Below are positions 21,636 to 43,893 of a DNA stretch of 64,000 bases, in pieces. The notes below the pieces were generated by a model that ran no database searches, was not told where the DNA came from, and was given only the letters and a program-made list of their open reading frames with translations. The stretch lies in assembly GCA_031291305.1 (NCBI GenBank), contig JARLJH010000067.1:43714-107713 (forward strand), in the 5' to 3' direction. Origin of the DNA: Rhodoferax sp. GTDB lineage: Bacteria; Pseudomonadota; Gammaproteobacteria; Burkholderiales; Burkholderiaceae_C. The number at the start of each line of letters is the position of its first letter. The first letter of the stretch is position 1. Made by a program: the position numbers and the translations under genes.

Positions 21636-21770
21636 TGTCGGATGACACAGAAAGTGAAAAATTGGACATTGATTTCAAAAGGTTTTTCCAATTTCTATGG
21701 CACCGTTCAATGGAGTAATGTCATAGAAAGTGAAAAATTCTGGAGTCTGCGTCACATTAACTGAAAAAAT
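21636..21770. repeat. left transposon end with spaced TnsB-type repeats
   Basis: The terminal inverted repeat at 21636-21660 is followed by further copies of the same motif. Copy 1 is GACACAGAAAGTGAAAAATT at 21644-21663, copy 2 (GTCATAGAAAGTGAAAAATT) at 21720-21739 and a weaker copy 3 (ending CTGAAAAAAT) at 21751-21770. All are in one orientation. In Tn7 the left end has three separated TnsB sites; the same layout here supports the assignment. Confidence 0.85.
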
Positions 21771-21779
21771 CCTTCGTGT

Positions 21780-21926
21780 TTACATGCGATGTATGGCTAC
21801 AAACGCTACAGCTCCGACGACGGAGATCACCGAAAAGATCATACGTCGAAGTCTGCGGTTTGTTACGCCTTCCCAGCGTAGCGCACCATTGCCTTTATCT
21901 AAATCTGCTTCCAGAAAAATTTTCAT
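21780..21926 (-). CDS. 48-residue single-pass membrane microprotein
   Basis: This small gene starts at ATG 21924-21926, overlapping the stop of the upstream gene as ATGA, with GAGGAG a few bases before it inside that gene. It encodes 48 residues: a charged N-terminal half (MKIFLEADLDKGNGALRWEG, then NRRLRR) and one hydrophobic segment (MIFSVISVVGAVAFVAIH), ending at TAA 21780-21782. I recognise no family. The coupling and the good ribosome-binding site argue that it is translated. It would place a short basic cytoplasmic tail beside one transmembrane helix; a role together with the 340-residue protein is inference. Confidence 0.6.
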   Translation of the reverse strand: MKIFLEADLDKGNGALRWEGVTNRRLRRMIFSVISVVGAVAFVAIHRM

Positions 21927-22945
21927 AGTTTGACTCCTCTTTCTTGCAGCAGTTTTTCAAAGTACTTAAAAGTTTCCGCGTAGTCTGGGCTAGCAACAAT
22001 ACCTGCCCATTCTCCCGGTGCCTTTGCCACTGCCGATTCTGGAAGTACATAGTCGTCAGGGTGCCACGCAATTACTTTGGGATTGCGCTGCAAGATAGTT
22101 ACAGGAAGTGCACCCCCATTGAGTAGAAGGTCGTAATCTTGTGCTGTGAGCCGCTTGCCGGTTACGTGAACGCCCAATCGATGGGCAAAATACACAACCA
22201 GCTTGATGTGTTCACGGCAGCGCCAATAAGACCAACGGCCCTCGTCCCAAGTTTCATACGTTTCAAGATCTTCACCTCCTGGCAATGCCTTGTTGCGCCT
22301 AAGTACCGGAATAAAGTGAGGCAAGCGCTTCCAATCCTGTTCGTCATCGGTCATCGCGAGATCCGTATCCATTTTGACAAACAAGATGAGCTCTACGTCT
22401 TCGTACAGCCGTTTGGCATCAGATAGCGTGTTCGCTGCAACATCCATCGCCTTGTACCAACAGTGCGGAGTGGGTTCGCAAACTTGATCGCTTTTCCCTG
22501 CAAGCCAGTCGTATCTGACATAAAACCGATCGGCAATACTGCGAATAACAGAAGAAGACAACTTGAGCAGTAACGCATCCACGGATGCAAAATCCGCTAA
22601 TGTGAAGCCAAGATCCGATAGCGCCTCGACCGCAGCAGGAAAAGACAGTTGATGCTCTTGGATGAGCACATTGAAGCGCTCAGTAACTCCCCGCAACGCC
22701 GCTACGCCTCCATCCCGTCCCTGAGTGGACATGGCGACGCCATCCAGAATAGCTCCGGCAATTCCTGCTATTGAGCCGCCCAAATAGTTCGCTTGCGCTT
22801 CAAGAAAGGCTCTTGTTTCAGGTCTAACAACGACGGGAAAACGTCCTGGATTCGCCGAAACAGGCTGCTTCAATGAGTCATCTGTCGCAGCTCCGACCAG
22901 CCGATATAGGATTTCTTGAAGCGTAGGGACAAAACGGGTTGCCAT
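21923..22945 (-). CDS. uncharacterised protein, possible DNA-binding N-terminal half
   Basis: A 340-residue protein that I cannot assign to a named family. Residues about 32-75 (GRFPVVVRPETRAFLEAQAN, then GGSIAGIAGAILDGVAM) have the strand-helix-helix pattern of ribbon-helix-helix regulators. Residues about 100-155 (LGFTLADFASVDALLLKLSS, then SIADRFYVRYDWLAGKSD) resemble a helix-turn-helix region ending in the WL-G motif common in phage-type repressors. The C-terminal half is acidic and aromatic without clear motifs. Ten bases upstream of its ATG lies a large palindrome, a likely autoregulatory operator. The stop overlaps the 48-residue membrane protein. The gene is the outermost on the left side of the transposon and is separated from the tns operon by about 200 bp. 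Confidence 0.75.
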   Translation of the reverse strand: MATRFVPTLQEILYRLVGAATDDSLKQPVSANPGRFPVVVRPETRAFLEAQANYLGGSIAGIAGAILDGVAMSTQGRDGGVAALRGVTERFNVLIQEHQLSFPAAVEALSDLGFTLADFASVDALLLKLSSSVIRSIADRFYVRYDWLAGKSDQVCEPTPHCWYKAMDVAANTLSDAKRLYEDVELILFVKMDTDLAMTDDEQDWKRLPHFIPVLRRNKALPGGEDLETYETWDEGRWSYWRCREHIKLVVYFAHRLGVHVTGKRLTAQDYDLLLNGGALPVTILQRNPKVIAWHPDDYVLPESAVAKAPGEWAGIVASPDYAETFKYFEKLLQERGVKL

Positions 22946-22954
22946 GGGTAAATT

Positions 22955-23147: not shown

Positions 23148-23585
23148 TCAGTCCGTTTCCGATGATTCGTCATCAAGTCTTCCAGCGTTCCCTGGTGAAG
23201 TTACATGAACATTTCGGTTGGTGAAAATTGTCTTTAGTGTTGCCGATTCAACCTTATGACTCGTCCTGCGACTCACAATTTCAAGATTAATTTCTATATG
23301 TAGAAATTGAAAGTAGTCCCACAACTCTTCAAGTGACATGGTCACCGCGGGGCCTTGAGTCCTGCTTTTCAGAATATGAAGAATAAGTGCCAACGGCGCC
23401 GCCGCATGGGTCCCCGCCGCGCCATCGATATCGCAGTCGTATGCCATCGCTTCATTCAGATCGCGCGCAATCATGTCCAACCAATGATCAGACAAATTGC
23501 ATGGCAGTGCGAAAATTGCTGGGCGTTCCAGAACTTCACTTCTGAGTTGCGCAAGATCAGATTTTTGGGGGAGTTGCTTGATCAT
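23148..23585 (-). CDS. small unknown protein, last gene of the tns operon
   Basis: A 145-residue protein, unrecognised. It is mostly helical by appearance, with a hydrophobic stretch in the centre (APLALILHILKSR), an aromatic EELWDYFQFLHIEINLEI segment and a polar, acidic tail. It overlaps the preceding small gene by four bases (ATGA), so it is translationally coupled into the operon that carries tnsABC and two tniQ genes. Its retention there suggests a role in transposition, target choice or immunity, but nothing in the sequence proves it. Confidence 0.72.
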   Translation of the reverse strand: MIKQLPQKSDLAQLRSEVLERPAIFALPCNLSDHWLDMIARDLNEAMAYDCDIDGAAGTHAAAPLALILHILKSRTQGPAVTMSLEELWDYFQFLHIEINLEIVSRRTSHKVESATLKTIFTNRNVHVTSPGNAGRLDDESSETD

Positions 23586-23911
23586 ATTTTCTCACTGGGG
23601 TTGATGCTGCTTCGCGCAGCCGTTTGTGAGCGAATGAGGGCGCCATATTCCGACCGAATACGGGCAATGATTTCGTGATTGAAAACGTGTAAATCGCGCC
23701 TTTCGTGCGCCAGGCGTGTTCGTTCCGTGATCAAAGTGGAAACAAGCTTTTCGTCATAGTCAGGCGTGGCTCGTTCCCTATCTATTCTTTCCGTATGCAG
23801 TGCGATCAAATGCCCAATGCATTCAATGGCTGCCTCATAGGCGATAGCCTCATCCTGATTCCACTTGGGTAACGGGTCGGGTGTTGTATTCGTTGGAACT
23901 GGCATATTCAA
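23582..23911 (-). CDS. small helical/coiled-coil protein in the tns operon
   Basis: A 109-residue protein, unrecognised. A long charged helix is likely from about residue 20 to 95 (EAAIECIGHLIALHTERIDRE, and STLITERTRLAHERRDLHVF), with heptad-like spacing of leucines and isoleucines. It overlaps both neighbours by four bases, linking the long TniQ/TnsD-like gene to the 145-residue gene. The tight coupling suggests that it acts with the transposition proteins, perhaps as a small adaptor; this is inference. Confidence 0.72.
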   Translation of the reverse strand: MNMPVPTNTTPDPLPKWNQDEAIAYEAAIECIGHLIALHTERIDRERATPDYDEKLVSTLITERTRLAHERRDLHVFNHEIIARIRSEYGALIRSQTAARSSINPSEKI

Positions 23912-25761
23912 AACTCGTTGGTAATCGTCGGTCGGTGAATTTCATACTTGTCGCGCAAATGCACGTCGCTTTTACCGCAGACATCCGACCTGCGGTAAAA
24001 ATACTGTCTTGTTCCATCAATGGTGGGGCCGCAGACCGGCGTCACGGTGAGTTCGCGTAATAAGGCCCGAGGGGAACGATGCATTGCGCGGGCATGGTCG
24101 GCAGCAGAGATATAGGTTGCTTGGAACCGTTCTATGTGAGCCGTAGAAATCCGATGCCCGAGCGTTTCGTGCAGCGTGGTGGTCAATAGGCCCAACCGTA
24201 CGAGGTCGTATGCCACCTGCTGCTTGATGCCCATGGCCTGCGCAGCCTGATCAATCGACAATCCATCCTCATGCGCTTCGCGGCAAGAATCCAGCCATCT
24301 TTTTGTTTCGGCAAGGTTCAAGATTGCCATGCCCAGCGGTACGGCATGGCTACTTTCTCCCTGCGAAATTAATTCCTGTGCAAGGACTGCCTTGATTAAC
24401 CCGGTGCCTTCCGTGTCACGAAGTCGCCAGTATTTCAGTACATCGCGGACGGAAATTCCGGCGTCGGTCGCTGGAACGCTGGGCCATACATGGAGTCGAT
24501 CAATTTCAGATTTTGGGATGAGCCAGGCAGCGGCATGCTGGTTCTTGTGACGGGAGATAAGCGGCGTCACAACGCCGCAGGCAATCAGCTCTCTAAGCCG
24601 TCGTTCTGGCAATGCAACAAGCTGTGCCGCTTGTTGCATTGAAACAGAACCATTGGTGGCCCCCTGGATATATGCCAGATCACTGGTATGGAGCGTGTTG
24701 GATTTACGCCCAGACGGCAAGGATGCAGTGGTTGCAAAGACCAGCTCGGCTTGTACCAGGTGGCGAACCACCGACTGGGAAACACCGGCAGCAGCCGCCA
24801 TTTGCGGCAAGCTAAGACGAGGGTGGTCGGAAATGGTTTGGCGCTTTAGAAGTTTGTTGCGCTGGCACACCAACCCCCACCAGTGCTCACGCAGGTAGTT
24901 TTCAAATGCATCCCGCAGAAACTGGAAGCCAGAATCAGAAAGATCCTCATACAAAACTCGGTACAACGGAGAAAACGTCCGGCGGACGCTTGGACTTGCG
25001 GGGGCCGACGCCTGCAATGCAGCCATCAGGACGTGAAGCCTCGAAGGCCATGTATCCAATAGATCGGCAGTGCCCACGATGAGCGCCTGGGCTGTCGGCA
25101 TTCGATGCGAATCAGCGACTTGCCCTGGATGCGCTGGTCGTATTTGAGAGGCAAATAATCCAAGGTAACGGACTAAACGATGTACTTCTGGTGGCAACAA
25201 GCCAGAAAACTCACTCACTGGCACGCCATCGCGATCACCACAAAGTAGCCGGGTGATTGTCAAAGCGGTTTGACTGGCTTGTTCGGTGATGGCCTGCGCC
25301 AGTGACGCGCCACATTCACAATGCCGCTGATCAACAGCGGACCATTGGGTCACCCTGGTGCACTGCGGGCAAATGTCTTGGAGCCAAGTTCCATGCACAG
25401 TGCATGCGCAGGTTAACTTCAAACTCCAACATCCCTGCAAGATGCCGCCTTCCTTCAAACACGCAGGGCACCAGCGTCTGCACATGTGGTTGAAGTCGGA
25501 AATGTGAAGTCCCAATGGCATCGCGTCCAGACCCCATTGGCGAGGCAATGCGCCAAATAGGTAGCTCCGCTCCTGGTCCGTCAGACACAGGCGTTCGCAC
25601 AGCTCCTCAAATGCCGGTCGCATCCGTACCCGCAATGAGCTGAAAAGTTGGGGCACAGAGACGAAACCATTCGCCGCGGCTACACGCATCAAGAATCCCG
25701 GTATAGCCTCGCCGGGCACCGGTCGCGGCCGAACAGCATAGGCAACAGCGGCCCTATTCAC
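23908..25761 (-). CDS. TniQ/TnsD-like target-selection protein with multiple HTH-like units
   Basis: A 617-residue protein starting at GTG 25761 (AGGAG nine bases upstream; overlaps the previous stop by eight bases). An open frame to 25905 lies inside the previous gene and is discounted. The N-terminus (RPRPVPGEAIPGFLMRVAAANG, residues 11-32) is the TniQ opening. Residues 98-151 hold a zinc cluster: CPAC, CAC..H, CPQC and CECG. The C-terminal half contains repeated helix-turn-helix-like units at about 316-340 (LSLPQMAAAAGVSQSVVRHL), 372-399, 499-524 (LSIDQAAQAMGIKQQVAYDL) and 550-571. In Tn7, TnsD reads the chromosomal attachment site; this protein is the best candidate for recognising the end of gyrB. 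It is the second and longer of two TniQ proteins in the operon. Confidence 0.87.
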   Translation of the reverse strand: MNRAAVAYAVRPRPVPGEAIPGFLMRVAAANGFVSVPQLFSSLRVRMRPAFEELCERLCLTDQERSYLFGALPRQWGLDAMPLGLHISDFNHMCRRWCPACLKEGGILQGCWSLKLTCACTVHGTWLQDICPQCTRVTQWSAVDQRHCECGASLAQAITEQASQTALTITRLLCGDRDGVPVSEFSGLLPPEVHRLVRYLGLFASQIRPAHPGQVADSHRMPTAQALIVGTADLLDTWPSRLHVLMAALQASAPASPSVRRTFSPLYRVLYEDLSDSGFQFLRDAFENYLREHWWGLVCQRNKLLKRQTISDHPRLSLPQMAAAAGVSQSVVRHLVQAELVFATTASLPSGRKSNTLHTSDLAYIQGATNGSVSMQQAAQLVALPERRLRELIACGVVTPLISRHKNQHAAAWLIPKSEIDRLHVWPSVPATDAGISVRDVLKYWRLRDTEGTGLIKAVLAQELISQGESSHAVPLGMAILNLAETKRWLDSCREAHEDGLSIDQAAQAMGIKQQVAYDLVRLGLLTTTLHETLGHRISTAHIERFQATYISAADHARAMHRSPRALLRELTVTPVCGPTIDGTRQYFYRRSDVCGKSDVHLRDKYEIHRPTITNEF

Positions 25762-27169
25762 AGCGTCCCGCTCCTGGTCGTTGTGCCGCCTGTTTGGCAA
25801 GGTCGTGATGGACCAGCGCGTGGACGAATTCCATTTCGCTCTTGTGCAAGCAAGAAAGGTGTTGCCCGACTTCGAGCAATACATCCTTTGGGTCGCGCAA
25901 CTCAACAGGCAGGTGCCAGCGTCTCATCACTGATCCCAACACCGATGGATGCCATTTCTTGTGCGCAGCCTTAAAGAAGATGTTGAGGAGTGCTGTGGCA
26001 GCTGCCGGGTTTCCATCCATCCAGTAGCCGGGCTGGTTTGCGGAATTGCTTCGGCAGCTAAATCCATCCGCAGGGTCCAGTGCCGAAACGTTTATCGCGA
26101 AGGATCGCCACCAACGCGCCAGTTCTTCACCGTGGCTCTGGCGTTGGGTTTGGCTTAGGCGAGGATGGAAACATACCTGTTTTTGATGGACGATTCCGGC
26201 GCTGTGGGCCGCGAATGCTTGCTGTACCGCCTCCCGCACCAGCACGGCCAACGGATTGACTTGTCCCTCAAGCTCTGCCACTAAGGTGCGAATCCGCCGA
26301 TAGCATTCCAAGTCCTGCAGATCTACCAGTACGGAGGATTGCGAGCGGAAGCACCGCTGCAACAGCCAGTTCGCCTTGGTGAGCCATGTTCTGTGCGGTG
26401 GTTCTGCAGTCAAGCTGACTTCCCAGGCTCCTGGCACCATCCGCGCGCCCTGTCGCTGGACGATTGGCCAGGATGCGGGGCGCAGATAGCTGCGCCCCTC
26501 TGTCAACGCGCGGCGGAGTTTCAGGGACCACCACAACATGGCATAGACATCTCGGGTCTGATACGCCGTCACACTCGACGACACCCTGGTACAGGCATCC
26601 CGCACGGCATCCGAAACTTGGGCGTCGGCAGCTTTCGCAAGCATGCGGGCCAAGTCAATTGCCCAATGCGGCGTGCGCACGACAGGTCTCTCGCTGACCT
26701 TGGCGTCGCAGGCACACCGCCATCCGGAGCGCAAGGTTCTCCATGTGTACCTGAGGCCGCAGGCATGGCAATCTTCTGCCAGCAGGCAGGCATGCAGAGG
26801 GCAGGCAGTCACAAGTGGCAAGTCCCACAATAGACAGTGGTAGCCGGAGCTACCAACGCACACCGGGCACAGGCGAGGCGCCAAGGACCACGTATGCCAC
26901 TTCACAACGCATTTTTGATCCCATCGTTCGGTGAGTCTGTATTCCCTTGTTCGCAGGGTCTCCAGTACATTGGCTCCCAACACGTGCCTTAGAACCTGGT
27001 CCGCGTTAAGTTCCTGGGCCGCTTTGCTACCTTTCAAAGCTGAACGCACGTCCTGTGGAAAATCATGACCGTTTGCCATATAGATCCGCCAGCACCAGCC
27101 TGCCAGGCTTTCGCCCAGACGCAGCTGGGGTCGCACGGGGAAGTCAGCGAGCGTCGGGTGGGCATTCAC
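25754..27169 (-). CDS. tniQ: TniQ family transposition protein
   Basis: A 471-residue TniQ-type protein. The GTG at 27169 is chosen because AGGAGG precedes it by five bases within the end of tnsC. The N-terminus has FPVRPQLRLGESLAGWCWRI, the classic TniQ start. A zinc-binding region follows at about residues 100-150: LCPVCVGSSGYH, ACPLHACLLAEDCHACG and CAC. TniQ proteins bridge the target DNA and the AAA+ regulator TnsC/TniB. It overlaps both tnsC and the longer TniQ gene. Having two TniQ proteins suggests two target pathways or a division between core complex and site reader. Confidence 0.88.
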   Translation of the reverse strand: MNAHPTLADFPVRPQLRLGESLAGWCWRIYMANGHDFPQDVRSALKGSKAAQELNADQVLRHVLGANVLETLRTREYRLTERWDQKCVVKWHTWSLAPRLCPVCVGSSGYHCLLWDLPLVTACPLHACLLAEDCHACGLRYTWRTLRSGWRCACDAKVSERPVVRTPHWAIDLARMLAKAADAQVSDAVRDACTRVSSSVTAYQTRDVYAMLWWSLKLRRALTEGRSYLRPASWPIVQRQGARMVPGAWEVSLTAEPPHRTWLTKANWLLQRCFRSQSSVLVDLQDLECYRRIRTLVAELEGQVNPLAVLVREAVQQAFAAHSAGIVHQKQVCFHPRLSQTQRQSHGEELARWWRSFAINVSALDPADGFSCRSNSANQPGYWMDGNPAAATALLNIFFKAAHKKWHPSVLGSVMRRWHLPVELRDPKDVLLEVGQHLSCLHKSEMEFVHALVHHDLAKQAAQRPGAGRCE

Positions 27170-28131
27170 ATTGACCTCCTACGCACGGCTGAATGGGCTG
27201 CCTGGAAGGGCTCTCCTCCCCGGTCCAGGCGTCGGAACTCGAAGTGAGGATTGAACGCATTCAGCTTGCCAATCCCTTCCCACCAGATTTCTTCGGTAAA
27301 TGCCTTCTCCAGCATCGTCGCATCGATGATCTCCATGTCCTGCTCAAGCGCATGGCGCAATGCTGCGGCTAACAGCTTTTTGATGTACGCCACGCGGCCA
27401 TCACTTGCGAAATACAAACGTTGACCCATTTCCTGTGCGCTGTAGGGAGTCGAAGTAACCGATACGTTGATCAGCGAGACCAGCGACAGGAACAACTGCA
27501 GGCACTCTGTTTCGATGTTGACGGTATCACTTTGCCCCATGGCAAGGCGTAGCCGACTGGAGAATCGACGACGCAGCTGGTCATTGATTTGCAGTATCTG
27601 TTCAACCCGAGGCAGTCCCACTAAACCGGTGGGAACGCCGACTTCGTCAATAAGACTCTTGAACCAGTCACCCACCATGTAGTGCGTTCGAGTGTCGCCC
27701 CGATCATGCAGGTGCTGCGCCTCATCAAACAGCATCAGCTCGACACCGCACTCTTTGCAAAGCTTTGAGATGCGGAACATTTTGCCGCTGATGGTGCCCT
27801 TGTAATGCCAGGGGTCCCCAAGGGCAGTGAGCATGGCATCGATGACGCCAGCCACGGTCGCTGCGGGTGGAACTGTGGCGATCAAAACTTCGACCTTATT
27901 GCGATCAAGCAAGCGCCGGGGTGGATGTTGGTGTGCCAGCCACCGGCATAAGCTGCTTTTTCCGGTACCGGCCTCGCCAGTGACCAATACGTGCTTGGCG
28001 ATCCCGGTTTCCCGAAACAGTTTCAGATTGGCTTCGATGGCGTTCATTGCCGCCACAAAAGGCGGGAAGGGGATGTACTGCGCGTCAAAGCTCTTGAGCT
28101 GGGCATACATGTCAGAGCATTCCATCTTCAC
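27166..28131 (-). CDS. tnsC: TnsC/TniB-like AAA+ transposition regulator
   Basis: A 321-residue AAA+ ATPase. Walker A is GEAGTGKSS at about residues 52-60 and Walker B is VELMLFDEAQHL near residues 130-141; an arginine-rich LRRRFSSRLRL follows at the sensor/arginine-finger region. TnsC polymerises on target DNA with ATP, receives the target signal from TniQ and activates the transposase, and it also takes part in target immunity. It overlaps tnsB by 20 bases. GTG 28131 and ATG 28125 or 28110 are alternative starts; none has a strong ribosome-binding site, so the first residues are uncertain. Confidence 0.9.
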   Translation of the reverse strand: MKMECSDMYAQLKSFDAQYIPFPPFVAAMNAIEANLKLFRETGIAKHVLVTGEAGTGKSSLCRWLAHQHPPRRLLDRNKVEVLIATVPPAATVAGVIDAMLTALGDPWHYKGTISGKMFRISKLCKECGVELMLFDEAQHLHDRGDTRTHYMVGDWFKSLIDEVGVPTGLVGLPRVEQILQINDQLRRRFSSRLRLAMGQSDTVNIETECLQLFLSLVSLINVSVTSTPYSAQEMGQRLYFASDGRVAYIKKLLAAALRHALEQDMEIIDATMLEKAFTEEIWWEGIGKLNAFNPHFEFRRLDRGGEPFQAAHSAVRRRSM

Positions 28132-30115
28132 CCGTCCGTATCGGTTGCATTTGGAAGCTGGTCAATATTTTTGGAATGTCGAACGTTATTGGCACGATGT
28201 TCTCGGACTCTTTCGGGGGTGCCTTTGGGTTCGGCTTAAGAACCTCTGGTGCAGGCGGTATGCCACCACCTTGCGGTTTACTGCCGGTAATGCCGCGTAT
28301 GGACGCGGAGCGTTGACGGGCCTTTTGCTTGCGACTGGTCATCAATTCAGCAACCGACTGCGCGATATCGTCGCGCGCGCGTTGCAGTGCCACAGGATCT
28401 TCGGCATTGGCACCGTCCTCACGCATCAGTTGGCGGATCAAGGTGTTTTGCGTGAATGTCAGTCCACGTGCATAGTCCAGATTTAAGGCTTGGACGAGGA
28501 TGGGGTCAGATTCGTCTGGTCCCCACACATGGACCTCGACGAGATCCTCAGGATCGAAGACCACGCGAATGGCCACGCCTTCGCCGTACTGCCTCAAAAT
28601 GGGACCCAGACCATCACCGTTGTATCGAATGCCATTGAGTTCAAAGCCGTCCCGACGCAGCTTTCTGGAGGCACTTTGCCCTATGCGTTGTTGAAACGTG
28701 GACAAGTCTTTTGGCAATTGAGGTTCATGGGCGGCGAGGCCCTCGTTCCAGCGCTTGAACGGTGTTGTGTCAAGACTGCGATGCTTGGTCTGCGCGTAGA
28801 TGTCAACCACCCATTTTTCAAACAGATGCTTGAATTCAGCCAGTGTCAGAAGCGCACATTTTTGTGGGTCATAGTCGCCACGCAGATGGAAGCGGGCAAA
28901 ACTCACACCAGGCAACTGATGTGCGAAGAAATAGTTGATGGTTTTGAGGTAGCGCTCAATAGAGCCCTTGAATCGCGGCTGGCGTTTGGGGCAGAACACG
29001 ATTGCGAAGCCGAGGTCAAACGCAATACTGTCCAGGTCGATCCCGTGGAATTCAAGGCCGTTGTCAGCGACCAATACTTCAGGAATGCCATAGCTGGGCC
29101 ATCGGTTTTCGACAGGAAGGTTTGGAATGGCAGAAATAGTTGGTGGTTTCGGTAAAACGGCGTGCCTTAACGCGCCGACCACCGCTGCGGCAGAGGGACT
29201 GCCGTAAGTCAGGTAGTAGCCCAGCGGAAGTCGACTGTAGTGGTCGATGGCCACCGTCAGTGTGGGGCGGCCAAGCGGTAGCCATGTTCGCTCGTCCACC
29301 AAAAACAAATCCAATGGCGTATGGTCTATTTCGACCCGCTCCAAGATACGGGTCGTTTGGGTTCCCGCCTTGCCCACCCGGAAGCGGCGATCCGCACTGG
29401 CCCTGCCCTCCTTGAGCGCAACCATTTCATATTGATTCGTTCCCGCCAGCAAACGGTACGTGGTGCGTTCGCTCGGGGCAACCAGTGGCGTGTTCGTCAA
29501 AGACTGGCGATTCTCGGTATCAACCTTGGCCAAAAGGCGTGAATAGATATTCTTACCGGTCGCCAACGGCGTCGTATTGAAGGCCTCGGTCATCGCGGCT
29601 GCCAATAGTTCCAGCAAGCGTGGACTTTGCTGGCTGTCTTTTCTCCCGCGAAGGTCATAGCGAGGGATCAAAGAGCGCGTGTCACGCCCTTGAATGAGCC
29701 GACGGTGCCAACGATATACGGTGGTTACGCCAGGAGGCGTAGGGTCTTCAATCTCCACGGACACCCGTTTGATGATGGGCTGCAGGAACGCGGGGGTGAA
29801 CACCGGTGTTCCGTCTGCTGTGATTGCTTCAAGGTATTGACGCCGACGCTTGACCTCTTTTTGTGCTTCCTGGGACAGCTCATCCAGTGGTCTCGAATAG
29901 GTCACCGGTAGTTTGCCACCAGGGGACGCTTTTGATGATTCAGAAATGAGGCCTTTTGCAAAGTCGTCAAGCAGTTGCTGACGGGTTACCAGCGCCAGGG
30001 CGCCGCCATCCATTGATTCGATCAGCACCTCGCCATTGGGTTGTAGCCGCTCGATGCGGAAGGCGCCTCCTTTCCATTCAAAAACCATGTTCTTGTGCAA
30101 TCCAAAACCAGCCAT
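28112..30115 (-). CDS. tnsB: TnsB/TniA-like DDE transposase
   Basis: A 667-residue transposase of the Mu/Tn7/retroviral integrase group that joins the 3' ends of the element to the target. N-terminal DNA-binding regions precede the catalytic core. The core has RVEIDHTPLDLFLVDE with the first aspartate at about 264, EVLVADNGLEFHG with the second at about 351 and RFKGSIERYLKTIN with the glutamate at about 387. A beta-barrel Mu-type C-terminal domain and a basic, proline-rich tail likely to contact TnsC follow. It should bind the GTGAAAA-core repeats at both element ends. It overlaps tnsA by 38 bases. Confidence 0.93.
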   Translation of the reverse strand: MAGFGLHKNMVFEWKGGAFRIERLQPNGEVLIESMDGGALALVTRQQLLDDFAKGLISESSKASPGGKLPVTYSRPLDELSQEAQKEVKRRRQYLEAITADGTPVFTPAFLQPIIKRVSVEIEDPTPPGVTTVYRWHRRLIQGRDTRSLIPRYDLRGRKDSQQSPRLLELLAAAMTEAFNTTPLATGKNIYSRLLAKVDTENRQSLTNTPLVAPSERTTYRLLAGTNQYEMVALKEGRASADRRFRVGKAGTQTTRILERVEIDHTPLDLFLVDERTWLPLGRPTLTVAIDHYSRLPLGYYLTYGSPSAAAVVGALRHAVLPKPPTISAIPNLPVENRWPSYGIPEVLVADNGLEFHGIDLDSIAFDLGFAIVFCPKRQPRFKGSIERYLKTINYFFAHQLPGVSFARFHLRGDYDPQKCALLTLAEFKHLFEKWVVDIYAQTKHRSLDTTPFKRWNEGLAAHEPQLPKDLSTFQQRIGQSASRKLRRDGFELNGIRYNGDGLGPILRQYGEGVAIRVVFDPEDLVEVHVWGPDESDPILVQALNLDYARGLTFTQNTLIRQLMREDGANAEDPVALQRARDDIAQSVAELMTSRKQKARQRSASIRGITGSKPQGGGIPPAPEVLKPNPKAPPKESENIVPITFDIPKILTSFQMQPIRTGEDGML

Positions 30116-35039: not shown

Positions 35040-38000
35040 CTTCATCATCGGCGAATTGGGCCTTGGAGCCGGCTCGGTGCGGTCCATTTCCTTGGAGCGG
35101 GATCTGTATGACCCAGAGGCGCTGAATGCCTACATGGTGACGCCTGCGGTTGTTGGCGCACTGGGGCAGTTGGGCCGCGCCCTGAGTTCGGACTCACCTC
35201 AGCGCGCTTGGAAAGTGGTTGGGCCCTATGGCAGCGGCAAATCCGCATTGGGAGTCGCCGCCGGTCAGTTGTTGGCTGGTGCCCGGCACTTTTCTTTTAT
35301 CGCAGACGCGCTCAAAGCGCAGTCCAAGCAGGCGCATTCTCTGTTTGCGGAATCGAAGCGATACCCCGTTGCGCTGGTCGGATCCAGGGTGTCACTCGGT
35401 ACTGCTTTGGCTAGGGCATTGCTGCGTGCTGTCGAGTCCTGGGAAAAGAGTAAATCTGCCAACCTGTTCAAAAAGCGGCTGGATCTCGCCAGCGGTACCT
35501 ACGACGGCGTTGAGCTAAATGCTGCGGTGGCCGCCATGGTCCGCGACTTTGCGGATACTGCGGCGGCTAACGGTTTCAGCGGCGTGGTTGTCCTGGTCGA
35601 CGAGTTGGGTAAGTTTGTTGAACACGCCGCTCTTTACCCAGCCGAGGGCGACCTGATGGCCCTTCAACAACTCGCGGAAAGTGCGTGTGGCCGAGAGGAT
35701 ACTCGACTCGCGGTCGTTGCCTTCCTCCATCAGCACATCTCGGCCTATGCCGACGGGTTGGGTAAGGGGTTGTCCGATGACTGGGAAAAGGTCGCCTCGC
35801 GCTTTGAGGAAATCCCGTTTGATGAGCCAGTGGAGCGATACGCCCACTTCGCAGCTCATGCACTGGCCGTATCTGAACGCGGCCGCATGCAACACGGACT
35901 TGCCGCCAAGGCAAGAGCCCTCTATCAAACCTCGGTCGACCTGGGATTGCTCAAGCCCCAAGGCCCTGCCGACTTCGCTTTGCTCGCAAAGGCCGAGCGG
36001 CTCTATCCGCTGCATCCGGCTGTCGTCGCAGCGATGGCGGTCATTGCCAAGCGCATGGGGCAGAGCGAGCGGTCGTTCCATGCCTTCTTGAACGGTGATG
36101 AGCCCAACGCTTTGCGGGACTATGCCAATCGCACCGCACACGATGCGAGTCATTGGTATCGCCTCGACAATTTGTGGGACCATCTAGCCGGTTCCCATGT
36201 TCTTAGATTCCGCGAACGTAATGCGGAGCGTCGTTGGGTCTATGCAGCCACCTGCGTGGCCCGAGAGGGCGCGTCGCGTCTCCAGGCCAGCGTCCTCAAG
36301 GCCATTGCTGTTCTGGAATTGGTCGAGCGTGGTCTTCGTCAGCATGTGTCGACCGTCTTGATTCAGCACGTACTTGACGAAGTAAAGCCATTGGATGTGG
36401 TGACAGCGATCGAGGAACTTGCTCGAAAGGGCGCTATTCAGGTCAGGCGGGGTGGTGACCAAGTAATGATCGCAGTGCCAGAGCTGGCAAACATCGATGG
36501 GCTACTAGAAGAAGCTGCGAGGGAGGGAGAGGCCGTGCTGGTAACTCGGGCACTCAGTTCCGCGTTGTCGACGCGCCCTGTCGTTGCCCACAGGCACTAT
36601 GACCGTACCGGGACACTGAGAACCTTGGGTGTCCTTGTCGGCACACCTGATAACTGGCCGGAAACCCCTAAGTTCGGTGCAGATGACATCAAGCCCGACG
36701 GGTGGCTGAAGGTTCTCGTGGTGGAGTCGTCCAACCGGGAGCTGAAGTCGGCAACGACCCGCTGCGGGCAGCAGTTCCAACCGTTGGAGCTACACGTTTG
36801 TTTGCAACCGAGCGCCGGCGCGCGCAGTGCACTGGTGCAATTTGCGACCTGGCTCACGGTCTCTCAACAGCTCAGAGCGAAACAGTTGGACCCTTGGGCG
36901 ACACAGTACGTAGACCGCCAACTCGCAACCGCCCGCGAAGAGGTCGACCAAGTTATCGCGTCTCTGCTGGCCTCGAAAGGCAAGGAGAGCAGTGCCCTGA
37001 CCTTCTGGCATAGCGGGAAAGAGGTGCCGAACGGTGCCGCCCTAAACCTCAGTCAGCTAGCCTCATGGTTGTTTGACAACCAGTTCCATCTGGCACCTCG
37101 CATCGTCAACGAACTCATCAACAAGGACAAACCGGCGTCGCCTATCGTGCTTGCTCGTCAGCGAATGTTTGAGGTGCTCTTCTCTGGCGACCACACCAAG
37201 CCGATCTGCGGCCCAGCAGAGTTCCCTCCAGAGCGTCTGATCCATCACACACTACTGGTCGACAGTGGCATTTGGTCGGAACGTGAAGGCCGCTGGTCGT
37301 TGAAGGTGCCGACTGCGGGGTCGGCAGTTGATGTCGTCCCGGTCTGGAGCTGCATCGCAGAGCTTCTATCTGATGGCGGGGTGAAGACCTTCGCCGAAGT
37401 GCTCGATGCCCTAGCAGCTCCCCCCTGGGGGTCCGTGCTGGCCCGGCTGGTATCTGGGCGGCGCTTTATCTGCTGGTGAATCGTGGCACCTGTGGCATAT
37501 TCGAACGTGGAACCTTGGTTCTTGAACTGACTGTCGAACACCTGCAGCGGATGTACAAAACGCCCGTCCAGTTCGAAATCAAGGAACTGCCAGCAAGTGC
37601 GGCCAGCCGTACGCTATTGGAGGACTATCGAGCAGCACTGGCAACTGTAGGTTGCCAGGTTGATGGTGAGTTGACGGCATTGGAGGTTGCACGGTCAACC
37701 TATCGCTGGCTGGCAAGACTTCCGTCGTACTCCCTCCAAAGTGGTCGTGTGTCGAAGGACACAGCCCTGTTCAGGGCTCGCCTCGAACGTTCTCGGGATC
37801 ACATCGACCTTTTGTTCAAGGCGGTTCCCCAACTCCATAAGGACAGCAAGTCAAAGCAGGCCTTCCGAGCTTGGTTGTCGAACGTGCTTATCGACCTTGG
37901 CGCAACCTATAAACGGCTGCAGGACGAGGTTGGCGGTGTGCTCAGCACGTCTTTCGATATTGCTGGCACTTTGCCCCGCGTACGCCAGCAACTTCAGAAA

Positions 38001-38486
38001 GAGTGCAGTTCGGCGACGACTGACGTTGCCGAGGTAAACCTGAGATCGTTTGTCCTGCGGTGTGCAGACCCAACGCTTTCGGATGACCGCTGGCTTGACT
38101 CAATTGCCAGCCTGATCGTTCACAAACCTTTGGATTCTTGGACGGATGCAACGCTCACCCAATTTGAGGGGGCCGTCATAGAGCTGTGCGCGCAGTACAA
38201 ACGGTGGGTAAGGCTGTTGAGCCACCGAGCGCATCACCCGGCAATTGGAGAGCGCTACGTGTCACTGACCATGACCCTGCCATCAGGCCATGAGTCAGCG
38301 GTGTTCGTTGCGGCTGACCCGGTAGCCAAGAAGATGGCCGCTGAGATGTTGGAGAGTCTGGATCGCACCAGTGGTGGCAACCGTGATCGGATGCTTGCAG
38401 TACTGGGGCAAGCGCTGGTGACGCTTCAGGCCGCCGAGACACCGATTAGGGAGAAGCTAGAAAATGACAACCAAAAAGCCAGTTAG
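35032..38486 (+). pseudogene. large P-loop ATPase (about 1,150 residues), one-base frameshift near 37,420-37,431
   Basis: The first part (35032-37479) has Walker A GPYGSGKS at residues 64-71 and Walker B VVVLVDELGK at about 185-194, followed by a long helical region. It ends abruptly at TGA 37479. The second part is open in the +1-shifted frame from before 37430 to 38486: it reads RAGPAGIWAALYLLVNRG and continues with coding character. One missing base in the C6-T-G5 tract (37420-37431) explains the break; restoring it gives a continuous protein of about 1,151 residues. The size and P-loop layout recall BrxC/PglY-type ATPases of defence systems, but no pglZ, brxL or methyltransferase accompanies it. 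It overlaps DUF4007 upstream and the PAPS-reductase gene downstream. It may be a sequencing error rather than a true inactivation. Confidence 0.78.
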
Positions 38487-39291
38487 ACACATACTCAGCC
38501 TTTCAGGTGGGAAGGATAGCGCTGCGCTGGCCATCTACCTGCGTGATCGGGTCCCCGATATGGAGTACATCTTTAGCGACACCCTCAAGGAGTTGCCAGA
38601 GACGTATGAGTACTTGGAGCGGATTTCGAGCTACTTGGGGAAGCAGGTCATTCATCTGAACGCTGACCTGGGCTTTGACCACTGGTACCACATGTACGGT
38701 GGGATGATTCCCTCCAACCATCGTCGCTGGTGCACCCGGGCGCTCAAGCTCAAGCCGTTTGAGCAGCACTGTGACGAAGATGAAGTCATCAACTACGTCG
38801 GCCTACGTGCAGACGAAGAGCGCAGTGGCTACATCAGCCACAAACCGAACATCAAAGCTGTTTATCCGTTCAAGGAAGACGGCTTGGTGCTGCGCGATAT
38901 CGAAGGAATTCTGAAGTCCTCGGGTGTCGGCATGCCGCCGTATACCAAGTGGGGGCGCACTAGGTCTGGCTGCTACTTCTGTTTCTACCAGCAAAAGATT
39001 GAATGGGTTCGACTCAAGGAAACCTACCCGGATCTCTACGCGAAGGCTAAGGAGTACGAGCGTCCATTTGAAAAGACCGGCAATTTCTTCACATGGAGTC
39101 GCGGGGAAAGCCTTGAAGAGATGGAGCAACCTGAACGCGTTGAGCAAATCAAGCGTGAGCATGTCATCCGAATCCAGAGGAACGCTGCGCGCCGCGAGAA
39201 CGCTACCTTGATGGAAGTCTTCGCGAGTGCCGAGACGGCGGACGAGCCGGAAGATGATGATGACCAGGGCTGCTTGGTCTGCTCTTTATGA
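38464..39291 (+). CDS. PAPS reductase/DndC-like ATP-pyrophosphatase
   Basis: A 275-residue PP-loop protein. The ATP-pyrophosphatase loop is LSLSGGKDSAALA (SGGKDS at 14-19). RRWCTRALKLKP follows with Cys90, then GCYFCFYQQ with Cys170 and Cys173, and a C-terminal CLVC (Cys270, Cys273). Several spaced cysteines suggest an iron-sulfur cluster, as in DndC, which activates sulfur for DNA phosphorothioation; metabolic CysH also belongs to the superfamily, but no cysteine-biosynthesis genes are near. It overlaps the ATPase gene by 23 bases and precedes the GHKL gene by six. The likely role is adenylation/sulfur transfer to a nucleic acid, which is inference. Confidence 0.85.
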   Translation: MTTKKPVRHILSLSGGKDSAALAIYLRDRVPDMEYIFSDTLKELPETYEYLERISSYLGKQVIHLNADLGFDHWYHMYGGMIPSNHRRWCTRALKLKPFEQHCDEDEVINYVGLRADEERSGYISHKPNIKAVYPFKEDGLVLRDIEGILKSSGVGMPPYTKWGRTRSGCYFCFYQQKIEWVRLKETYPDLYAKAKEYERPFEKTGNFFTWSRGESLEEMEQPERVEQIKREHVIRIQRNAARRENATLMEVFASAETADEPEDDDDQGCLVCSL

Positions 39292-39297
39292 TGCGCT

Positions 39298-41723
39298 ATG
39301 GCTTTTAAAGTTAAAGCAAGAGTTCTCCTGGAGCTTGGGGCTGAATTGATCAGTTCGGACGGCATTGCGCTGTACGAGTTAATCAAGAATTCTGTCGACG
39401 CGGGCAGCGAGAGTGTCGAAATTCGGGTCAACGTGGCGCTGATGGCCTCAGGTTATCGCGTACTGCAATCGAAACTAGCAGCGCTACCGACGGGTACACG
39501 ATTGCGACGCGATTGGCTCGAAGCGACCGTCCGGCAATGCTTCGAGGCTACCGCCTCTGAAGACCTTCGCACAGAATTTGTCCGCCGCCTGGAAGGTTTG
39601 GGTTTGCAACGCGCAGCAACCGTCGCGGAGGGGTTTTACCGCGAATTCTCTTTCATTGAAGTGGAGGATTGGGGCTGCGGCATGTCCATGGACGATCTGC
39701 GAACTAAATTTCTGACGGTTGGCACGCCCAATCGCCATCTGGATCGGCAGCGCTTGGGTACAGCGAGTAAGTTGCTGGGTGAGAAAGGCATTGGGCGTCT
39801 CTCTGCCATGCGCTTGGGACTGTTCACTGGTGTGATCAGCGGCATGGAGGGTGAACGTCACTGGAACACCTTGGATATCGACTGGTCAACTCTTCGTGAC
39901 GCTCCGGACATGGATCTCGATGAGTTCTCGCCCGAGCCGGAAAGGGGGGGGAGAAAAAGGCCAGTGACTTGGGCACGCTTATCCGAATCAGCGACTTGCA
40001 AAGTGACTGGTCGCTCGCCCGGGTTGCGGCCCTCGCGCGAGCCGAGTTCTCGAAACTGCAAGATCCATTCGAAACGTCTGGCGCGGTCCTGGATATCGAT
40101 CTCTCGTTTAACGGGAAGGAGGTCACGGCAGTCGAGGAGATTGAGACTGAATGGCTCAATAAGTGGCATGGCCACTTCAAAATGACGTTTGGCTACAAAA
40201 GGGTTAATCCCGACGACGAAGAGGATTTTCGTGAGTCTCCTGTGCTCAGCGGCACGGCAAAGTTTCGACTCCCCAAGCCGCCGGATGCTCCAGAGCCACT
40301 GGATGTGATTGACCAGAAGGACATTGCTGCTACAGGAGATGGCCTTTACAGCCTTCTTGCAACCAGTGGATATGCAGTGTCTGGAGGCGGAACCACGATT
40401 AATGATGCGCCGCGGTTTGCGGGAATCGAAACCCTCGGTCCTTTCACGGCAGAGGGCTTCTGGTTCAACCGGCAGCGGGCTCAGCAGGAGTTCGGCGACA
40501 ACTACATTAAATTCAAGACGTGGCTTGAGCAGTGGGCAGGTGGTCTGCTCGTCTACCGCGACGGCTATCGCGTATATCCCTATGCTGCTCCCGATGACGA
40601 CTGGCTTGAGCTGGATCAGAGGGCACTTCGCCGAAAGTCGTTCAAGCTGAACCGCGGTCAGTTCGTGGGATATGTACGTATCACGTCGCTCAGGAATCGA
40701 GAACTACGCGATCAGACCAATCGCCAAGGGCTAGTCGACACGCCCGAGAAGCGGGCGCTAGTCCAGTGCTTGCAGTACGTCATCTGGAAGGAACTAGGTT
40801 CGCTAGTAACCCAGCACGAAGAGCGAATGGCAACCAAGTCGCTTACCACCGTGCGCGAAATCGAGAAGCAGGTCACCGAGCATGCGAAGGACGCGAAGGT
40901 TACGCTGCGAGAACTAGCCAAGCGGGTACCTGACGAACACCAGACCGTCGCCAATCTTCGCGGCTACGTTGAGGAGTTGGAGGCAGCCTGGGCCGCTGCA
41001 AAGAAGACCCTAAAGAGGCAGGCCAATCAGGCTGACCTCTATTTGCATCTAGCGGGCGTAGGCATATTGCTGGAGTTCGTGATCCATGAACTGAATCGGG
41101 TCACCGGCGCCACTTTGCAGGATTTGCAGAAGATGAGCGACAGCGCATTGCCGCCAGGTCTGAAGTCCCTCGCGCGGCAGCTTCAGACGTTGGACAAGCG
41201 TCTGCGGATCTTGGACCCGGTGAGCACACCGGGGCGCCAGCGGAAGGAGGACACGGACGTCGTCGAAGTGCTGGAGACGCTTCTGGATGCGCATGAGCAG
41301 CAGTTTGAAAGGCATCACATTAAAGTGAACCTCAAGCTCACTCCAGAGGGAGCACGTCTAGTGTCCAACGTGATCGTGGGCCAGATGTACCAGATCTTCG
41401 AGAACCTGATCGTCAATTCCGTCTACTGGTTGAGCCATCACCGGGCGATGAGGCGCTTGGAAGGTAATGAAGATTTCGAGGCGGCGATCGAGATCGAAGT
41501 TGATGCCAACACGAACTCGATAACGTTCCGGGATAACGGGGCCGGTATCGAGTGGGCGGACCGCGAGAAGATCTTTGAGCCGTTCTTCAGCAAGAAGCCC
41601 TCGGGCCGCGGCATAGGCCTATACATCGTCAGAAGTCTGTGCAAGGAAAATGCGATCACTCTGTCGCTGCTTGAGAGAATGGCGGCAGGAACGATTCCTG
41701 GATTCAAGTTCGAGATGCCATAA
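39298..41723 (+). pseudogene. double-GHKL histidine-kinase-like ATPase, frameshift at a G8 tract
   Basis: Two frames join into one protein of about 808 residues if one G is added to GGGGGGGG at 39944-39951. The N-terminal part is an Hsp90/MutL-type ATPase: N-box ELIKNSVDAGS (Glu27, Asn31, Asp34), EDWGCGM (Asp124) and GEKGIGRLSAM (161-171). The C-terminal part looks like a histidine kinase: a coiled-coil, an H-box-like FVIHELNRVTG (His near 597), N-box ENLIVNSVYW, DNGAGI, FEPFFSKK and GRGIGLYIV. So it has two ATP sites and a possible phosphoacceptor histidine. The next gene has receiver-like features, suggesting a signalling pair. As read, the first frame ends at 40185 in nonsense sequence. 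Phase variation, decay and sequencing error are all possible. Confidence 0.78.
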
Positions 41724-41742
41724 GGCGCATAAGGGGGGAACA

Positions 41743-43704
41743 ATGGATGTCGAGGCAGTGGCCGAAGCGGTGCCCCGCAAGGCGGTTCTGATTGATGATG
41801 CGTACCTTCGTCCGTCACCAGAGGACGTGAGGAAAAGCCTTCCCCCGCTGAGAAGGTTCCTGAGGAACGCCCCTGCGGCCAAGGCGTGGTTCGACGCGAC
41901 CTTTGGACTTAGTGGTAGCGCGGCAGACCGTGGTTATTTCGAGCCTTTGCTCGCTGACCCTTTGCGTACGCTTGAGCTTTGGAATCGAAGGGCAGAGTGC
42001 CCGGAGAGCCAGCGGCTTTTGGAGGAAGGGCTTGCGGATGTCGTTGCTGATGTCGGTCCGCTGAGACTCCCGCTTGTGCAAATCGAGACGACGCTGGTCG
42101 CGCAGGGTTGGGAACTTGTCCGTTTTGGCGCGCTGCCCGGACTGGATGTGGTTCCCGCAAATGAGAGCCTCGTGGTTATTGACTATGTGCTCACTTCGGA
42201 GACGCCGGAGGACATGGCAGCGAAGGTCGATGAGAGTACCCAGTTCCTGCAGAGTCTGGTCCAACGCGCGCTTGCATCCGAAAGAGGCTTGCCCTTGATC
42301 GTGCTGGTTTCTAGCCGCCCAGGCGTCGCGAAGGGAGAAGCGGAAGCATTCCGCAAGGCCGTCGGCCTGCATGGAGGCTACTTCCACTTCATCCGCAAGA
42401 TGAATGTTTTGCAAGAGCTTGGGCAACGTATCGACGGGTTCACTGCGGAGGTTGCTGAACTCGAAAGCTACCGACGGGTTCACCTGGCGCTGAAGGACGC
42501 TCTTCAGACGGCCTGCGCAGTGCTGAAGGCAGACATCGACGGCATGGAGCTACAAGACCTCGCAGCCCTGCATGTCGGGCATCTCATTCACGAAGGCGAG
42601 CCGCTTAGTGACTATGTCGGTTGGATGCTTGGACAGGCCCTTACCGTCAAGCTCCAGGAGAGTGTGACGCTGGCTGACGCATCTGCCGGGTTGCCCCCGG
42701 AGAATCATCGCGTGCTGCTCGGACACTTGGAGCCCACTCAAGGCATTCCAAAGCTCTTCAGCGAAGCCTCGACTGTTCGAACTGCCTCCAGTCAGCACCA
42801 CAAGCAGAGGACTGGCTCGCGAGAACTCCGTTTCGGAGACATCTTTGTTGGCAAACTCACCGGGAAAGGTAAGAAGGTTGATCTGACTCAATTTCGGCTG
42901 GTTCTCAGTCAGACCTGTGACCTCTTGCAGAAAAAGATTACTAACGGCCAGGTCCTGTGCGCAGAGGGTCAAGGCACGGAAGTGCCGAACACGGAAGTCG
43001 AATTGATGCGAGCCACCTTGCGTCAACTTGAAGACAAGGGGAGTACCCTCATCCGTTTAGAAGATGGTGCGTACTACCAAGTCCTTTGGAACGAGGTGAA
43101 TTTAGTCACTATCGAACAGACAAAGTTAAAGAAGGAACAAGGCTTCAGCTACATTGGTCGGTTGAACGAGATTTATGCGCTTGAAGTTCAACACAATGCG
43201 CTTAACAAGCTTGGTCGAATTGGTGTCCCCGTCAAGCCAGGCTACAGCTTGGTCTTTGGTGCAGTTCGTCTCCGTGTTTGGGGTACCAAGGGAGAGCACG
43301 CGGCACTCGCGAAATCGCGCGACAACAAAACGGTGACGGCCGTGCTCAGGCCTACGCCCAAAAAGCAGATCGCGATTTTGCTGTCGTCGGATATCAAGCA
43401 GTGGTTGGTTGAGCAACTCGGCCACTTGCAGGATCAGCTTCCTAAGGAGCTGACTGACGTCTCCAAGGAATTAAAGGCCTTGATGGAGTCGGATGGCGAC
43501 TTCCGCTTCTTCTGCAAACAAGTGGCCAGCGGGGCGCTGCAGCTTGGAATGAATCAGGAGAAAGATAAGAATGGCCAGAAGGAAAAGGACTTGGTTTGGC
43601 AGAGCAAACTGTGGGTTGAACTCGGCGCTGCGACGGTCTTCCCCAAACCCATTGCGCCTGCTCAAGGAGCTAGGCTGCAAATTGAATTTGATCCGATTTC
43701 ATGA
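41743..43704 (+). CDS. large protein with receiver-like N-terminal region
   Basis: A 653-residue protein starting at ATG 41743 after AAGGGGGGA; the frame is open to 41650. I know no named family. The first 230 residues have response-regulator landmarks: AVLIDDAYL (Asp18, Asp19), VVIDYVLTS (Asp147 as a possible phosphoacceptor), IVLVSSRPG (Ser190/191) and FIRKMN (Lys219). The spacing is longer than in normal receivers because of an insertion between the first strand and the phosphoacceptor. The C-terminal 400 residues look alpha/beta, with lysine-rich stretches. The gene follows the GHKL kinase-like gene by 19 bases and probably acts as its partner. It is the last gene of the operon and ends 67 bp before a strong terminator. 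Confidence 0.7.
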   Translation: MDVEAVAEAVPRKAVLIDDAYLRPSPEDVRKSLPPLRRFLRNAPAAKAWFDATFGLSGSAADRGYFEPLLADPLRTLELWNRRAECPESQRLLEEGLADVVADVGPLRLPLVQIETTLVAQGWELVRFGALPGLDVVPANESLVVIDYVLTSETPEDMAAKVDESTQFLQSLVQRALASERGLPLIVLVSSRPGVAKGEAEAFRKAVGLHGGYFHFIRKMNVLQELGQRIDGFTAEVAELESYRRVHLALKDALQTACAVLKADIDGMELQDLAALHVGHLIHEGEPLSDYVGWMLGQALTVKLQESVTLADASAGLPPENHRVLLGHLEPTQGIPKLFSEASTVRTASSQHHKQRTGSRELRFGDIFVGKLTGKGKKVDLTQFRLVLSQTCDLLQKKITNGQVLCAEGQGTEVPNTEVELMRATLRQLEDKGSTLIRLEDGAYYQVLWNEVNLVTIEQTKLKKEQGFSYIGRLNEIYALEVQHNALNKLGRIGVPVKPGYSLVFGAVRLRVWGTKGEHAALAKSRDNKTVTAVLRPTPKKQIAILLSSDIKQWLVEQLGHLQDQLPKELTDVSKELKALMESDGDFRFFCKQVASGALQLGMNQEKDKNGQKEKDLVWQSKLWVELGAATVFPKPIAPAQGARLQIEFDPIS

Positions 43705-43770
43705 TCGCTGAGGCGTGTAGGCGGCCAATATGGCCGCACATCTAAGCAGCAAGATGACACATGCCTGAAC

Positions 43771-43804
43771 AAAAGGCCAGCAGGTTTACCTCTGCTGGCC
43801 TTTT
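43771..43804. terminator. strong bidirectional terminator at the end of the cargo operon
   Basis: A perfect 13-bp stem (AAAAGGCCAGCAG at 43771-43783 with CTGCTGGCCTTTT at 43792-43804) encloses an 8-base loop. T tracts occur on both strands, so it can stop the cargo operon on the plus strand and also transcripts entering from gyrB on the minus strand. It lies just inside the right transposon end and would insulate the cargo from gyrB. Confidence 0.88.
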
Positions 43805-43824
43805 GACTTGATCAAACTCCGGAA

Positions 43825-43893
43825 ATTTTCATTAACTACGTCAATGAATTTTCACTAACCTGTCAAGATTTTCACGTTCTCTGTCAACCGACA
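43825..43893. repeat. right transposon end with close-packed TnsB-type repeats
   Basis: Three nearly adjacent copies of the motif with core ATTTTCA(C/T) (reverse complement GTGAAAAT) lie at 43825-43842, 43848-43864 and 43868-43885, each ending in GTC. The terminal inverted repeat is 43869-43893. The dense array at one end and a sparse one at the other mirror the right and left ends of Tn7. This end touches gyrB, as the Tn7 right end faces glmS. Confidence 0.88.

Follow-up and report, generated by a model that had tools for sequence, protein, structure and literature searches.

A complete Tn7-like transposon of 22,258 bp was identified directly behind gyrB in a Rhodoferax sp. genome, and it is highly probable that this element was homed to the 3′ end of gyrB by its target selector protein TnsD. 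The element occupies positions 21636–43893 of the window, the whole stretch of 64,000 nucleotides that was analyzed (contig JARLJH010000067.1, positions 43,714 to 107,713; G000:C35:43714-107713). The initial annotation had proposed gyrB as attachment site on the basis of this one insertion. The proposal is now borne out by 24 gyrB-linked elements (window included), all with the tns genes downstream of gyrB and reading away from it. Twelve of them were delimited by inverted ends and a 5-bp duplication, with the insertion 2–11 bp after the stop codon. The element and its insertion point are defined by the following features:

21636–43893, no strand: whole Tn7-like transposon, with inverted ends and 5-bp duplication
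21631–21635, no strand: left copy of the 5-bp target duplication GGTCA
43894–43898, no strand: right copy of the 5-bp target duplication GGTCA, containing the gyrB stop codon
21636–21770, plus strand: left end, inverted repeat and three TnsB-site-like repeats (21642, 21718, 21749), sparse
43823–43893, minus strand: right end, inverted repeat and three TnsB-site-like repeats, dense
43896–46499, minus strand: gyrB, intact (TIGR01059, PF00204, PF00986), its 3′ end being the putative attachment site

The terminal 25 bp were read base by base. The left end (TGTCGGATGACACAGAAAGTGAAAA) and the reverse strand of the right end (TGTCGGTTGACAGAGAACGTGAAAA) are identical in 22 of 25 positions, as had been claimed, and the GGTCA duplication at 21631–21635 and 43894–43898 was confirmed as well. 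Using a script that demanded six identical first bases, at least 20 of 25 inverted matches, identical flanking 5-mers and a distance of 5 to 40 kb, one end pair was found in the window and none in ten mononucleotide shuffles. The repeats, which may represent TnsB binding sites, are located at 21642–21663, 21718–21739 and 21749–21770 on the left (spacings of 76 and 31) and at 43866–43887, 43846–43867 and 43823–43844 on the minus strand of the right end (cores 20 and 23 bp apart). These positions agree with the sparse left and dense right arrangement described initially. The number of three repeats per end also held, whereas the uniform GTGAAAA core did not: it is found twice at each end, the remaining cores being CTGAAAA (left) and ATGAAAA (right). 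As a stand-alone test the repeat motif was rejected, with 9 occurrences at up to 3 mismatches in the window compared to 6.0 expected, and 9 or more in 19 of 100 shuffles. Since the motif is common in the window, the evidence lies in its placing at both ends and not in the motif count. The TGT...ACA ends, the several repeats with a denser right end and the 5-bp target duplication are all characteristic of Tn7-like elements. In the Tn7 layout the left end is sparse and the right end dense, the right end points toward the attachment gene and the tns genes read away from it.

The gyrB assignment is genuine, TIGR01059 (NCBIfam) being matched with 932.4 bits compared to a cut-off of 882.4. The TGA stop codon at 43898–43896 lies within the right GGTCA copy, in agreement with the initial annotation, and the right end of the element begins 2 bp past it. 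Because the stop codon is inside the duplicated 5 bp, gyrB is left whole. The right end faces gyrB, and the direction of the tns genes is away from it. Insertion at this point would be without cost to the host, and the element may be active today.

The transposition genes were identified as follows:

30078–30893, minus strand: TnsA endonuclease (PF08722, 7.2e-11), with D122 and E136-x-K138 kept in at least 9 of 10 aligned sequences
28112–30115, minus strand: TnsB DDE transposase (PF09299, 8.3e-6), with D264, D351 and E387 invariant in 9 sequences
27166–28131, minus strand: TnsC AAA+ regulator (PF05621, 3.5e-23), with the Walker A motif GEAGTGKS
25754–27169, minus strand: second, shorter TniQ-family protein of 471 amino acids (aa) (PF06527, 1.4e-9)
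23908–25905, minus strand: TnsD of 665 aa, a TniQ core followed by a C-terminal row of helix-turn-helix (HTH) modules (PF06527, PF12728)

The Tn7-like identity is thus supported gene by gene, as originally suggested: TnsA and TnsB carry their catalytic residues (the D264/D351/E387 triad was assigned by us), and they are accompanied by TnsC and a TniQ/TnsD selector, PF06527 being present in two proteins. The best profile matches of the target selector in the PDB were TniQ chains, in addition to one TnsD chain (6e-4). TnsD relatives align from about residue 49–58 of the window open reading frame (ORF), and the true start is probably near residue 50. Elements of the Tn5053/Tn402 family lack TnsA; membership in that family is ruled out by the TnsA with catalytic residues. 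A CRISPR-associated transposon (CAST) was rejected as well, as no Cas family was recognized among the 19 main ORFs of the element (Pfam), no CRISPR-like array was found in the element by a repeat search, and there was no Rfam match. By its site at gyrB instead of glmS, the element is not a prototypic Tn7. The TnsE family was without a match among the main ORFs scanned with Pfam, several of which had no family at all.

For the survey of the window's family (299 genomes), a TnsD search resulted in 25 matches including the window, and gyrB was then located in the other 24 genomes. Ten matches were full-length (window included), of which eight were at gyrB and two (G034, G028) were not. Among the 15 partial matches two were at gyrB (G269, G280); for the other 13, TnsD and gyrB were on different contigs or separated by more than 80 kb. 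The tns genes are located downstream of gyrB, on its contig and strand, in nine genomes (window, G285, G114, G190, G018, G218, G088, G269 and G280); tnsA was not detected in G088. In G187 the linkage extends over two contigs: on the gyrB contig GCCAG is followed by a transposon end, and the matching far end, with GCCAG behind it, is on the tns contig. This gives a total of 10 gyrB-linked genomes out of 299. A TnsB profile made from nine of these and related proteins matched in 90 of the 299 genomes, the best eleven matches coming from nine linked genomes plus G028 and G034, which are off-site; this survey is biased toward its nine profile sequences, and the systematic comparison with gyrB positions covered the best eleven. 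gyrB itself was found in 279 of the 299 genomes (about 150 rows listed).

The order survey (399 genomes; threshold for TnsD of E 1e-20 or better) detected the TnsD type in 22 genomes, of which four are the window and three genomes already included in the family count, and 18 are from outside the family. Eleven of these 18 are linked to gyrB (G959, G935, G845, G810, G1020, G917, G715, G803, G712, G843, G1065). All eleven have TnsA, TnsB, TnsC and TnsD matches behind gyrB and a transposon-like end directly after the stop codon (ten by a TGTnG test, G712 by eye). The total of 24 elements is composed of the 10 from the family, these 11 from the order and three named genomes (PgBe293, 16-61-112, LCSB751). 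By their collection labels the linked genomes belong to at least eight families (f1, f201, f205, f208, f212, f215, f218, f231), and their TnsDs to several clades.

The close relatives of TnsD were searched with a two-sequence alignment, the broad TnsD alignment being too diverse for the contig scan. Five loci were obtained, in Variovorax boronicumulans PgBe293, Variovorax sp. DXTD-1 (= G285), Hydrogenophilales bacterium 16-61-112, Zoogloea sp. STD2_9 and Zoogloea sp. LCSB751. Four of them are located behind gyrB on the same contig. The fifth is a TnsD contig of 12.8 kb, and the gyrB of that genome is on another contig with the matching right end.

The insertion in all 24 cases is found on the same side of gyrB and in the same orientation, which is the pattern of site- and orientation-specific transposition. 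A random landing at gyrB, or one through a non-specific pathway (TnsE-like or untargeted), with gyrB being no true attachment site, would be compatible with a single insertion, and some relatives are indeed located elsewhere. Given 24 elements at the same few bases in one orientation, 12 of them delimited, and five close TnsD relatives all tied to gyrB (four by contig, one by right end), this explanation is extremely improbable.

The duplications of the 12 delimited elements differ: TGACC on the gyrB strand (window), TGAAT (G702), AAGGG (G704), GAGTC (G190), GCTGC (G218), GCCAG (G187, two contigs), GATGT (G959), TAAGC (G935), TGCTT (G810), TGTAG (G803), ATTTT (G712) and TCGAA (G1065). The bases 3′ of the gyrB stop codon also vary among species. 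For these reasons, and as Tn7 itself requires no particular bases where it inserts, requiring GGTCA at empty sites, as the initial annotation had done, would be an unfair test. The genome G302 agrees with the joined window flanks to about 14 bp beyond its gyrB stop codon, but is without the junction of gyrB and the lipoprotein gene that adjoins the element on its other side. In G121, a member of the window's genus, the distance from gyrB to the lipoprotein gene is 27.8 kb, and the intervening DNA contains a transposon end and a remnant of TnsB. A gyrB–lipoprotein gene order is plausible as the ancestral state, though not proven.

Concerning the protein that selects gyrB, 11 of the 12 delimited elements were scanned for TniQ-family proteins, G187 being left out. 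TnsD is the only clear TniQ-family protein in seven of them (G1065, G218, G712, G803, G810, G935, G959), with open frames of 613–674 codons; G935 adds a marginal match of 98 aa. The other four (window, G702, G704 and G190) have two. As seven elements occupy gyrB with TnsD as their only clear TniQ-family protein, TnsD (23908–25905) is likely the gyrB selector. TnsD of Tn7 binds the last 36 bp of glmS (passages of PMC2918618), and by analogy the window TnsD should bind the 3′ end of gyrB. Recognition of gyrB by the 471-aa TniQ protein or by a guide RNA, with a different target for TnsD, was weighed with regard to the two TniQ-family proteins of the window element and the guide-RNA homing that is known for CASTs (passages of PMC11406308). 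The seven elements with a single clear selector and the lack of a Cas family among the 19 main ORFs scanned, of a CRISPR-like array and of an Rfam match make it unlikely. The 471-aa protein perhaps serves a second target pathway.

The sequence motif GPxIDGxRQ at the C-terminus of TnsD was found in five gyrB TnsDs (window, G285, G114, G269, G018) and partially in G187 and G190; the off-site G034 and G028 lack it. In the predicted TnsD structure, which is weak overall (mean predicted local distance difference test score (pLDDT) 64, predicted template modelling score (pTM) 0.34), only parts of residues 361–640 are good. In this region consecutive HTH modules are predicted, most of them at fair to good confidence, and individual modules are similar to phage Xis and MerR-type proteins, albeit at poor E-values. 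A Foldseek match between the TnsD model and TniQ (E 5.2e-5, TM-scores 0.2–0.3) gives the TniQ assignment no more than loose support.

With TnsD as selector, the mechanism can be envisaged as follows. The C-terminal HTH row of TnsD would bind the conserved 3′-terminal tens of bases of the gyrB coding region, its TniQ core would recruit TnsC, and TnsC would bring the TnsA–TnsB transposase. The transposase would then insert the element in a fixed orientation a few bases beyond the stop codon, with the right end toward gyrB and a 5-bp duplication, leaving gyrB whole.

Several observations weigh against this interpretation. A clean empty site of the same species was not found among the genomes compared. 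In 12 of the 24 linked elements no far end was detected, and a search without the duplication failed for seven of them. These 12 are G285, G701, G114, G088, G280 and G269 and, with the same kind of finder, G845, G1020, G917, G715 and G843; for G018 there is a weak match only (duplication CTGTG, 9 of 30 bases). Six of the 18 TnsD-positive order genomes outside the family have TnsD off gyrB (G1045, G964, G836, G908, G977, G759), as do G034 and G028 within the family, which have the same broad TnsD type. Two off-site copies are present in G1045, and G715 has a second, off-site copy. In a survey of the class (369 genomes), four positives fall outside the order, each with TnsD and gyrB on separate contigs. 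The C-terminal motif is absent from the TnsDs of G218 and G088, both at gyrB. Finally, a nucleotide profile of the last 99 bases of gyrB from 14 hosts revealed no stretch that is more conserved, and the binding site was not located in it.

Full-length off-site matches were found in G034, G028, G1045, G964 and the second copy of G715; the far ends of these six off-gyrB elements (G1045 counted twice) were not found. The linkage of G765, one of the 18, was undecided. The initial annotation had named occurrence of the same family at many unrelated sites as an argument against gyrB. The near family is consistent with the gyrB site (four of five relatives on the gyrB contig, the fifth with the right end), and the wider TnsD type departs from it in part (6 of 18 elsewhere, one undecided).

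Of the other seven order positives (six off gyrB and the undecided G765), five are without an end motif after gyrB. The other two, G836 (L210) and G977 (L209), have a right end of the window type after gyrB, and no tns genes were found in the downstream stretches fetched (40 kb and 10 kb). These ends are either relics or belong to elements larger than the stretch fetched. Among near-relative gyrB loci, an end-like motif (TGTAG or TGTCG) within 13 bp of the stop codon was found in 13 of 48 loci (12 of 47 genomes), compared to 1.8% of the 13-mers of the window. The 48 loci are the closest ones returned by earlier searches and not a random sample, and one is cut off right after the stop codon. 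In several of the 13 motif loci the inner repeats are doubled as at a transposon end, in others they are not; L035 is doubtful.

The TnsD tree was calculated from 22 TniQ/TnsD proteins, 10 of the 32 collected having been dropped (<381 aa), and does not extend to the TnsDs of the order survey. The 14 gyrB TnsDs are distributed over four groups: the window with Variovorax, Hydrogenophilales and Zoogloea (support 91/98, below the star threshold), G114 with G187 and G190, G269 with G018, and G218 with G280 and G088, the last three groups with starred support. The gyrB label requires 3 changes on the tree, compared to a mean of 6.7 after shuffling, and 2 of 500 shuffles were as low, a result to which near-copies contribute. 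As the deep branches are poorly supported, gyrB reading may have arisen once or several times.

One ancestral element could have settled at gyrB and been inherited with its hosts without repeated homing; the linked hosts found all belong to one order and the tree is compatible with a single origin. This is very improbable, since gyrB TnsDs of other clades are only 21–27% identical to the window TnsD, the ends and duplications differ, and members of the window's genus have a different end (G303) or a relic (G121) at the same site. As other, often very different, Tn7-like elements occupy the same spot, the gyrB end looks like a shared and harmless landing site. Among plasmids, TnsD was matched in four records, in two cases across most of its length (28 and 27% identity). 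These two matches are on conjugative Pseudomonas plasmids and adjoin tnsA and tnsB; the TnsD of pXWY keeps a related C-terminal motif. A spread of gyrB elements by plasmids would fit these data, though they do not prove it.

With some reserve, we favour a broader interpretation, in which the order has a major Tn7 attachment site, without a name to date, at the gyrB 3′ end. It would be shared by several deeply separate TnsD lineages competing for a spot of a few bases near the replication origin, with about a quarter of near-relative gyrB genes (12 of 47 genomes) carrying an end-like motif and with conjugative plasmids as carriers. The position adjoining the replication origin is suggested by gene order.

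The window element shares with Tn7 the proteins TnsA, TnsB, TnsC and TnsD, the 5-bp duplication, the conserved gene left whole, and the end asymmetry and orientation of the layout given above. It differs by its location 2 bp after the stop codon of gyrB, compared to about 20 bp past that of glmS, by the second TniQ protein, by cargo between the right end and tnsA and by the lack of a TnsE family match among the main ORFs scanned. For Tn7, passages of PMC2918618 describe the 5-bp duplication, the conserved gene left whole, the insertion about 20 bp past the glmS stop codon and the fact that no set sequence is needed at the insertion point.

In Tn7017, a type I-F3 CAST with a TniQ-targeted parE site, a TniQ-family protein likewise directs insertion at the gene of a type II topoisomerase B subunit (passages of PMC11406308). 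That system has parE and CRISPR-Cas, whereas the window element has gyrB and no CRISPR-Cas was found in it. parE, the paralogue of gyrB, is an already published TnsD/TniQ site (passages of PMC11406308). Tn6022/AbaR elements also combine TnsABC and a TniQ protein with a fixed chromosomal gene; they inactivate comM and use TniQ and TnsF, whereas the window element leaves gyrB whole and has a large TnsD (passages of PMC10293859 and PMC11406308). Zoogloea sp. LCSB751 (L166), the source of the comM-targeting Tsy element described in PMC10293859, additionally carries a complete Tn7-like element behind gyrB, flanked by the duplication AAGGG.

No description of gyrB as a site of Tn7-like elements was found in the literature searched (open library, supplementary tables not covered). 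The term 'gyr' is absent from the main texts of PMC10293859, PMC11406308 and PMC8649781, whose supplements were not covered and may list gyrB. In PMC12452197, as far as its consulted passages go, gyrB serves as a marker for the host tree. With gyrB, an essential, nearly universal gene joins the short list of Tn7 safe sites. The diverse TnsDs that seemingly read the same target form a natural set in which, next to glmS and parE, the part of TnsD that recognizes DNA and the way new sites are acquired can be studied. A gyrB selector could also provide a protein-guided, gene-sparing insertion site for genome engineering.

The remaining features of the element are the cargo, smaller ORFs and a terminator-like repeat:

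34134–39291, plus strand: SspB, SspC and SspD of a DNA phosphorothioation defence system (PADLOC)
39298–43704, plus strand: two GHKL-type ATPase ORFs and a 684-aa ORF without family, after sspD
33224–33586: partial IS21 helper gene (IstB) within the cargo
31039–31458, minus strand: HTH regulator (PF13560)
23582–23911, minus strand: ORF of 109 aa without family, 3′ of tnsD
23148–23585, minus strand: ORF of 145 aa without family, after tnsD, present in three relatives (52, 34 and 33% identity)
21923–22945, minus strand: ORF of 340 aa without family beside the left end, without a relative in the sister elements searched
43770–43805, no strand: perfect 14-bp inverted repeat with TTTTG at its end, between cargo and right end

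SspC is encoded by two ORFs in different frames (35032–37479 and 37476–38486) with an overlap of 4 bp, which is either a natural split or a frameshift. SspA, SspE and SspF-H were not recognized among the ten ORFs scanned with PADLOC. The GHKL ATPases and the 684-aa ORF possibly form an unknown effector module of the Ssp system, and the gyrB site is a place to look for defence cargo. From its conservation, the 145-aa ORF likely belongs to the transposition module.

The 14-bp inverted repeat may act as a terminator. On the other side of the element, the DNA past the left duplication (21600–21630) starts with TGTAG on the gyrB strand, in which it resembles the right ends of many transposons behind gyrB. 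This could be the trace of a previous occupant or a coincidence.

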